This document shows positions 979 to 26,148 of a stretch of 40,054 nucleotides of DNA, one piece after another. Made by a program: the position numbers and the translations under genes. Positions within the stretch are counted from its first letter, which is position 1, and each line of letters begins with the position of its first letter. The notes below the pieces were generated by a model. It ran no database searches. It saw only the letters and a list, made by a program, of their open reading frames with translations, and was not told the DNA's origin. This DNA comes from Desulfobulbaceae bacterium (GTDB taxonomy: Bacteria; Desulfobacterota; Desulfobulbia; Desulfobulbales; Desulfobulbaceae), in the NCBI GenBank assembly GCA_015489765.1, contig WFZC01000337.1:1-40054 (forward strand), written 5' to 3'.

Positions 979-1152
979 GACATATATCACCACTTATTGA
1001 GAATTCACTGTTTTTTTAGCGTAACCTGTTGATTTTCATTGTTTGTTGTGGTTGGCCAATTTGGCACAGCCATGCTGGTTTGTCGGTTGGCGGCATTGGG
1101 GGCAGTGCAAAAACATGTCCACCCGAGAGGCGATGCCTTTCTGATTGGTTGA

Positions 1153-1335
1153 TGGCGTCGTAAAAACTTCGATCTACTGCGTCGGGTGTCCCGGGGCGAT
1201 TCGCGGGCATACTACCTGTATAGTTGAGACCCGCCCCGGAACACTACTCCTCGGAGTCTCCGCTCCGCTTATCTGTATGTCTATGTTTTTACTTAGCCAT
1301 CTTTAAAAATTATTTAGACTTTTTACGGGATCACC
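1153..1335 (+). mobile_element. MITE-like element copy 1 (183 bp)
   Basis: The element starts TGGCGTCGTAAAAACTTCG and ends CTTTTTACGGGATCACC. It is flanked on both sides by the 8-bp direct repeat TTGGTTGA (1145-1152 and 1336-1343). The ends are imperfect inverted repeats sharing the core CGTAAAAA. Inside is a 13-bp stem with one mismatch, GTGTCCCGGGGCG (1186-1198) with CGCCCCGGAACAC (1232-1244), and a small ACTCC-TC-GGAGT hairpin. It encodes no protein: the 64-residue minus ORF across it is not conserved in the other copies. This copy lies about 60 bp before the DUF202-receiver gene. Confidence 0.8.
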
Positions 1336-1398
1336 TTGGTTGAATTTATTGATTTTTTTAAAGGAAACCCTTTTGGGGCTGCAGGGGAACAATAAAAG

Positions 1399-24768: not shown

Positions 24769-24943
24769 TGGCGTTGTAAAAACTTCGATCTACTGCGTCG
24801 TGTGTCCCGGGGCGATTTACAACATACTACCTGTATAGTTGAGACCCGCCCCGGAACACTACTCTTCGGAGTCTACGCTTCGCTCCGCTTACCTGTATAT
24901 CTGTGTTTTTACTTAGCCATCTAAAAAATTGGACTTTTAGGGT
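24769..24943 (+). mobile_element. MITE-like element copy 3 (175 bp) inserted between argB and argD
   Basis: The element starts TGGCGTTGTAAAAACTTCG and ends GGACTTTTAGGGT. It is flanked by a perfect 12-bp direct repeat ATTATATCATGA (24757-24768 and 24944-24955). The left repeat contains the argB stop and the right repeat contains the argD start. The inner stem GTGTCCCGGGGCG (24802-24814) with CGCCCCGGAACAC (24847-24859) is intact. There is no reading frame. The insertion separates two genes that would otherwise share an ATGA overlap. Confidence 0.85.
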
Positions 24944-24951
24944 ATTATATC

Positions 24952-26148
24952 ATGAGTAATGCGGATTGGGCGGCACGGGGAGAGCAGGTGTTTATAGGGA
25001 CCTACAGCCGGTTTCCGGCGGCAATGGTAAAGGGCAGGGGGTGCAGGCTCTGGGATGATGACGGCAGGGAATATCTTGATTTTCTGGCAGGGATTGCCGT
25101 CTGTTCACTGGGCCACTGCCATCCGGCCGTCACCCGGGCGGTCTGTGAGCAGGCGCAGGAACTGATGCATGTCTCCAATCTCTTTCATACCAAACCGCAG
25201 ATTCGGCTGGCGGAGCTGCTCTTGGCCAATACCTTTGCCGACAAGGTGTTTATGGCCAATTCAGGGGCCGAGGCCAATGAGGCGGCCATCAAACTGGCCA
25301 GGATTCACAGCGGTGCCGGACGCTATGAGATTATTTCGCTGTCCGGTTCTTTTCATGGCCGTACCCTGGCCACGGTTGCCGCCACCGGTCAGCCCAAGTT
25401 TCACCAGGGGTTTGAACCGCTGCCCGAGGGATTTGTCCATGCCCGTTTTGGTGATCCGGCGGAGGTGGAACGGCTGATCAATGAAAAGACCTGCGCCATC
25501 CTCTGTGAGCCGGTACAGGGTGAATCAGGGGTCCGGCCCCTGGACAGGGAATATCTACAGGCCATTCGCGCCATGTGCGATGAATGGGGACTGCTGCTCA
25601 TCTTTGACGAGGTACAAACCGGCATGGGACGGACCGGAACCCTGTTTGCCTATGAGCAGCTCGATGTTGTTCCTGACATAATGACGGCGGCCAAGGCCCT
25701 GGGCAATGGTCTGCCCATCGGCGCCATGCTGACCACCGACAAGATTGCCGCGTCTCTTGGGGTGGGAACCCACGCCTCCACATTCGGCGGCAATCCGGTG
25801 GCGGCGGCAGCAGCGGTTGCGGTAATGGAAACCATGCTGGCACCGGGATTTTTTGAGGGGGTTGCCGAGCGGAGCCGTTATTTTATCCATCGTCTCGAAG
25901 AGCTGGCGGTGAAATTTCCGCAGCTGGCAACCGGCGTTCGCGGTCGGGGCATGCTGATAGGATTGGTGCTGACGGAAAAAGGCAGGGAGCTGGGGGCTGA
26001 AATCGTGGGCAGGCTTTTTGAACGGGGTGTGCTGATCAACTTTGCCGGAATGCGGGTGCTCAGGTTTATTCCACCGTTGACCGTCAGCCGGGACGAGATT
26101 GACCAGCTCATTGAGCAGTTGACCAGAGTGCTGGCCGAATTTTCCTGA
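24952..26148 (+). CDS. argD: Acetylornithine aminotransferase
   Basis: A 398-residue PLP enzyme of class III aminotransferases that converts N-acetylglutamate semialdehyde to N-acetylornithine. Features include DFLAGIAVCSLGHCHPAV, NSGAEANEAAIKLARIH, SGSFHGRTLATVAATGQ, the cofactor Asp in LLIFDEVQTGMGRTG, and the PLP lysine in TAAKALGNGLPIGAML. Length is typical. The start codon lies inside the right copy of the 12-bp duplication. The element next to it offers no clear ribosome site (TAGGGTATTATATC), so its translation may have changed since the insertion. mntP follows after 11 bp. Confidence 0.96.
   Translation: MSNADWAARGEQVFIGTYSRFPAAMVKGRGCRLWDDDGREYLDFLAGIAVCSLGHCHPAVTRAVCEQAQELMHVSNLFHTKPQIRLAELLLANTFADKVFMANSGAEANEAAIKLARIHSGAGRYEIISLSGSFHGRTLATVAATGQPKFHQGFEPLPEGFVHARFGDPAEVERLINEKTCAILCEPVQGESGVRPLDREYLQAIRAMCDEWGLLLIFDEVQTGMGRTGTLFAYEQLDVVPDIMTAAKALGNGLPIGAMLTTDKIAASLGVGTHASTFGGNPVAAAAAVAVMETMLAPGFFEGVAERSRYFIHRLEELAVKFPQLATGVRGRGMLIGLVLTEKGRELGAEIVGRLFERGVLINFAGMRVLRFIPPLTVSRDEIDQLIEQLTRVLAEFS

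Follow-up and report, generated by a model that had tools for sequence, protein, structure and literature searches.

A high-copy MITE family of Desulfobulbaceae with a covarying hairpin core, probably mobilised in trans by an IS1182-type transposase

A Desulfobulbaceae genome carries a high-copy family of non-autonomous, MITE-like elements that is very probably moved in trans by an IS1182-type DDE transposase into ANNNNT targets. The family has defined ends, duplicates its target, is missing from corresponding sites in relatives, and has both its ends and its duplication size in common with an IS1182-type insertion sequence (IS). Every feature testable here supports its classification as a MITE. 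The left part of the element is a palindromic core whose pairing is maintained across dozens of genera, and DNA-level causes of this maintenance are somewhat favoured over RNA function.

Element copies and boundaries

The window, meaning the whole stretch of 40,054 nucleotides that was analysed (contig WFZC01000337.1), contains three full copies and one remnant (Table 1). The first-pass annotation had reported the three copies together with their flanking direct repeats. All are present where it placed them, and a search of the window with a covariance model of the family returned exactly these three as full copies. Its right ends stand, whereas its left starts give way to those in the table.

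Table 1. Features of the MITE family in the window
Feature	Start	End	Strand	Remarks
Fourth-copy remnant	459	509	+	consists of right end (CTTTTTACTTAGCCATC...TTTTTTACGAGTTCATC), lacks left part
Left target duplication, copy 1	1145	1150	.	TTGGTT
MITE copy 1	1151	1335	+	185 bp, GATGGCGTCG...CGGGATCACC
Palindromic core, copy 1	1151	1301	+	outer stem GATGGC/GCCATC and inner covarying hairpin; model R1, 71.8 bits
Right target duplication, copy 1	1336	1341	.	TTGGTT
Left target duplication, copy 2	17131	17136	.	TTATAT
MITE copy 2	17137	17299	+	163 bp, without small nested insert; covariance model 99.7 bits
Right target duplication, copy 2	17300	17305	.	TTATAT
Left duplication, copy 3	24757	24766	.	ATTATATCAT, 10 bp, above usual length
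MITE copy 3	24767	24943	+	177 bp, right end decayed; in ATGA overlap of amino-acid-kinase and aminotransferase genes
Right duplication, copy 3	24944	24953	.	ATTATATCAT, into downstream start codon (ATG at 24952)

End alignment of 30 copies from the host genome placed the boundaries at a start GATGG(C) and an end (C)ATC, outside which 6 bp are duplicated. Every duplication in the window had been seen to end in TGA before TGGCG, and it had been left undecided whether these letters belonged to the target or to the element. Since the aligned copies start at GATGG, GA is element sequence and only T belongs to the target. The inverted ends noted earlier are likewise present, but the terminal repeat GATGGCGTCGTAAAAA / GATGAACTCGTAAAAA fits them better than the "CGTAAAAA core" first described. 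The copies measured are 109-216 bp long (163-185 bp in the window), below the 500 bp that bounds a MITE, which leaves no room for a transposase gene.

The duplications themselves are shorter than the 8-12 bp of the first-pass annotation. The 118 distinct copies compared come from many genomes; 65 of them carry an exact 6-bp duplication, compared with 1.0 expected when flanks are randomly re-paired, and 16 carry an exact 7-bp duplication (0.2 expected). Flanking duplications are thus also found at other genomic copies. Copy 3, with its 10-bp duplication and decayed right end, is an outlier. The copies with an exact 6-bp duplication define a target preference ANNNNT, the first base being A in 53 of 65 and the last base T in 59 of 65.

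Other small repeats lie in or near the window copies. A very short palindrome, AGGTAAGCG-(variable)-AGACTCCG, of 18, 23, 25 or 28 nt, is inserted at positions 1250-1274 and 24867-24894. It gives 50 exact pattern matches in the host genome. Many MITE copies contain it, though not all do, and so does a hairpin repeat of another kind (L052), which gives it the look of an independent mini-repeat that inserts into hairpins. Another palindromic repeat, (T)GTAACTWCTCAATAA...TTATTGAGAA(GTTAC) with the interior CGGAATGACCC...GGGGATCCAG, occupies about 852-1008 and recurs at L052 and L068, in both cases inside a MITE copy. A 54-bp repeat (GATTTTCATTGTTTGTTGTGGTTGGCCAATTTGGCACAGCCATGCTGG...) at 1029-1084 is found dozens of times in the host genome and also in other genomes of the genus.

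Copy number, placement and empty sites

In the 3.9 Mb of the host genome, the left end of the MITE was found about 125 times (58 forward, 67 reverse; one control match) and the right end 128 times (15 control matches). The plus orientation common to all window copies, which had been remarked upon earlier, is a matter of chance given this near balance. Insertions avoid open frames, with 20 of 64 inside them compared with 210 of 256 control positions, and are not biased in their orientation relative to the genes beside them (9 vs 8). A terminator role was dropped, as the hairpin of copy 1 is weak and the copies have no orientation bias towards genes. A promoter-like site was looked for in copy 1 and none was found. 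At two loci of the host genome (L054 and L062), another palindromic element, AACCTCGTAAAAAGTCTCCCTGGAGGCG...GGGAGACTTTTTACGAGTCCATC, combines the right end of the MITE with an unrelated interior.

For window copies 2 and 3, the two flanks were joined and searched for in the eight genomes of the genus. The site of copy 3 is empty, with a single target copy, in five of them; the closest match is ATTATATCATGA in L209. The site of copy 2 is empty, again with a single target copy, in two. Relatives therefore show the one target copy that the first-pass annotation had proposed for uninserted sites. For copy 1, a clean two-sided empty-site match was not found in same-genus genomes.

Copy 3 lies in the ATGA at which the stop codon of an amino-acid kinase gene overlaps the start codon of a class-III aminotransferase gene; gene order suggests that the two are argB and argD. 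The T of the target, followed by the GA that opens the element, restores the stop codon. The duplication in turn preserves the start codon, and both frames therefore survive. In another genome (G038), contigs C4, C14, C60, C76, C88 and others end within 12-30 bp of near-identical MITE copies, which suggests a recent burst that has fragmented the assembly. The family is a hidden cause of broken assemblies and of insertions into operons in these bacteria.

An IS1182-type element as mobilising partner

The first-pass annotation had seen no transposase in the window and had inferred mobilisation in trans. We have now found an IS, probably of IS1182 type, whose terminal sequence is that of the MITE. 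Mobilisation in trans therefore has a candidate enzyme, whose action on the MITE we infer. The IS1182-type elements are about 1.89 kb long and combine MITE-like ends with a 6-7 bp duplication. The complete genome of a relative, G156, contains 15 copies of 1886-1887 bp with ends GATGACCTCGTAAAAAGT and GATGGCGTCGTAAAAAGT, of which GATGGCGTCGTAAAAAGT is identical to the left 16 bp of the MITE. Exact duplications of 6 bp flank 11 of these 15 copies and of 7 bp another two. Elements in three further genomes (G130, G164 and G175) agree with them in ends and duplications. The transposase has the domains PF05598, PF01609 and PF13751, with PF13751 above its cut-off. Its best NCBIfam match is IS1182 (NF033551; 2e-46), at 158.9 bits against an equivalog cut-off of 270.

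The host genome assembly contains no intact IS; its ends lie on separate contigs, and the frames are incomplete. Several contigs end in ...AACTTTTTACGAGTCCATC, preceded by a C-terminal transposase part with PF13751, and a matching left end, GATGGACTCGCAAAAAGTC, is present in contig C291. The ends of these partial copies are closely similar to those of the intact IS in relatives. The host genus would be predicted to carry an intact IS1182-type element bounded by GATGGACTCGTAAAAAGTC ends and flanked by 6-bp duplications. Across 25 MITE-rich genomes, MITE-type ends lie beside few or almost no IS1182-type genes, so IS and MITE are not regularly found together in draft bins. When one IS1182-type transposase was used as a query, the order yielded matches in only 19 of 194 genomes. 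Both the MITE-rich genomes and those of the order are mostly draft bins, which lose IS. Only about 16-18 bp are common to MITE and IS; hence the MITE did not arise by simple deletion from the IS found.

In the proposed mechanism, the ends GATGGCGTCGTAAAAA...TTTTTACGAGTYCATC would be recognised in trans by the DDE transposase of an IS1182-type IS with the same terminal repeat. The transposase would act on the MITE by cut and paste, delivering it to A+T-leaning intergenic ANNNNT targets, and insertion would duplicate 6 (or 7) bp of the target. The interior is a hairpin that has stayed paired as its sequence changed.

Other owners of the end sequences were considered. ISL3-type fragments beside them, and an IS200-type fragment read by eye, were set aside because they look nested rather than owning, with their own ends inside or adjoining the GATG ends. 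The same IS200-like fragment, which adjoins one end-sequence copy in contig C328, could be taken with the palindromic, intergenic and high-copy nature of the MITE to suggest that the family consists of repetitive extragenic palindromes moved by an enzyme of RAYT/IS200 type. This identity is extremely improbable and is already refuted by the target duplications: the terminal repeats are flanked by 6-bp duplications, an IS1182-type DDE element has the same ends, and HUH enzymes are not known to make such target duplications.

G156 also harbors a second MITE family (L311 and L325-L348) of about 101 bp, GATGGCTTCGTAAAAAGT...ACGAGAACGAC, with 6-bp duplications and thus co-resident with the IS1182-type element in one complete genome; its left end GATGGCTTCGTAAAAAGT is nearly the same as the IS/MITE end. 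At one locus each in G156 (L318) and G006 (L073), an IS1182-type element lies exactly between two opposed MITE-like ends at a distance of 6 bp on either side, which would fit a preference for the 6-bp duplication next to an existing element as a new target.

A hairpin core that keeps its pairing

The left 127 bases of the MITE form an imperfect palindrome. Within the outer stem GATGGC/GCCATC lies a second stem, GTAAAAANTNCGAT.TAC / GTA.ATCGAAATTTTTAC, followed by an inner hairpin with the loop CATACNNNNNGTATG. The second end, TTTTTACGAGTYCATC, comes about 20-35 bases after the core. The inner stem is G+C-rich in the host genus and A+T-rich in other families, and it pairs in both. Over all aligned copies, with their kinship ignored, stem cells are paired in 89.1% (78.8% when shuffled), 22 of 43 stem pairs have changed on both sides, and stem covariation reaches 0.311. 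The shuffled value is 0.139, and partners slid by 1-3 columns give at most 0.123. Matched double changes are found even among copies in one genome (CCCGGGGCG/CGCCCCGG vs CCTGTGGCG/CGCCACAG in the two arms), and conserved mismatched positions and the conserved loop persist through divergence. In alignment A1, the opposed internal-loop columns 33 and 100 covary as C/T or T/G (GCGTC with CTACTCC, GCGTT with CTACGCC), forming a Watson-Crick pair on neither strand.

The cause of this maintained pairing can be sought in the DNA or in a transcript. Arms may be kept alike by template switching, by hairpin repair from arm to arm or by a cruciform that transposition needs, with no RNA function involved, and we regard this explanation as evenly poised between right and wrong. 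The core is a long imperfect palindrome, matched double arm changes occur within one genome, and an orientation preference is absent, all of which fit; DNA-level arm correction can, moreover, mimic covariation. Simple arm correction would, however, erase the conserved mismatches and loop that persist, and the strand asymmetry of folding energy also speaks against it. That asymmetry is consistent across three subfamilies, in which the reverse-strand fold is more stable in 13 of 15, 31 of 31 and 2 of 2 non-redundant members.

A DNA cruciform does not predict such an asymmetry, which, together with the 22 of 43 pairs changed on both sides and covariation twice the shuffled value, favors the alternative that the element is primarily a structured RNA, or a hairpin for RNA processing, and spreads as a MITE, its covariation reflecting selection on the transcript. 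This alternative nevertheless appears doubtful. The wobble counts on the plus strand disagree between subfamilies, with G.T exceeding A.C by about 24 to 4 in copies of the host genus and A.C exceeding G.T in the order-wide type. Because of this conflict, the reverse-strand energy bias was not taken as proof of an RNA, and the bias may also rest on a few shared ancestral mismatches. The lack of gene-orientation bias and of a promoter-like site in copy 1 points the same way, as does a search of Rfam that gave no match up to E = 1. A broader proposal, in which the core is a functional RNA across much of Desulfobacterota that rides on MITE ends, is dispersed by an IS1182-type transposase and has stayed paired through deep divergence, is unlikely. 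On balance, DNA-level causes of the kept pairing are somewhat favoured over RNA.

Distribution across the order and phylum

Within the order, covariance model R1 detected the core in 75 of 116 genomes, which represent 34 of 50 genera. Of 198 genomes sampled from across the phylum, 68 carry it, in 47 of 145 genera. Five distant members (L270, L274-L277) have GATG ends and exact 6-bp duplications and are for this reason homologous transposable elements and not chance palindromes. Occurrence within the genus is very uneven: several species have over 90 candidates, whereas two others gave no match. Left-end matches in named collections fall mostly in metagenome-assembled genomes labelled Desulfobulbaceae or Deltaproteobacteria, so that the host probably belongs to the Desulfobulbales, probably as a relative of Desulfobulbus not yet in culture. 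Plasmid and phage collections gave no MITE match.

Descriptions of prokaryotic MITE families usually stay within one species or genus. Here, one architecture, consisting of an end, a 127-base palindromic core, a second end and a 6-bp duplication, extends across dozens of genera with strong covariation. Such a wide, covarying family offers a test case for whether MITE folds are by-products of palindromes or selected.

Comparison with known systems

A search of the accessible literature returned no description of such elements in Desulfobulbaceae. QMITE of Coxiella, Correia and ERIC elements are likewise small non-coding repeats, found in different hosts, and their ends differ from those of this MITE. 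For QMITE, a stable predicted transcript structure and 7-9 bp direct repeats have been reported (PMC10969869).

The IS1182 family has a DDE transposase (PF13751/PF01609/PF05598), and the terminal repeat and 6-7 bp duplication of the IS1182-type elements found here are common to the MITE, which, unlike the IS, carries no gene. IS1272, treated in connection with this family, is reported to replace stem-loops without duplications (PMC5678879). The IS1182-type group described here makes ordinary 6-7 bp duplications and thus contrasts with IS1272.

Among reported MITEs, Chunjie of Geobacter uraniireducens (Chen et al. 2008) measures 178-235 bp and is present in about 38 full and 57 partial copies, with terminal repeats, direct repeats, a mostly intergenic location and one copy in an operon (PMC10969869). 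Compared by description only, it is alike to the present MITE in size, repeats, intergenic placement and operon copy, and its host genus was once classed in the same Deltaproteobacteria. Numerous palindromic, intergenic multicopy families are also reported from Geobacter metallireducens and G. bemidjiensis, of the same former class; the accessible portions of these reports do not describe them as duplicating transposons or tie them to such an IS (PMC2700814, PMC2996986). Judged by their descriptions, Chunjie and the Geobacter multicopy sequences may be relatives of this MITE, a variant that merits further attention for its covarying core of phylum-wide reach.
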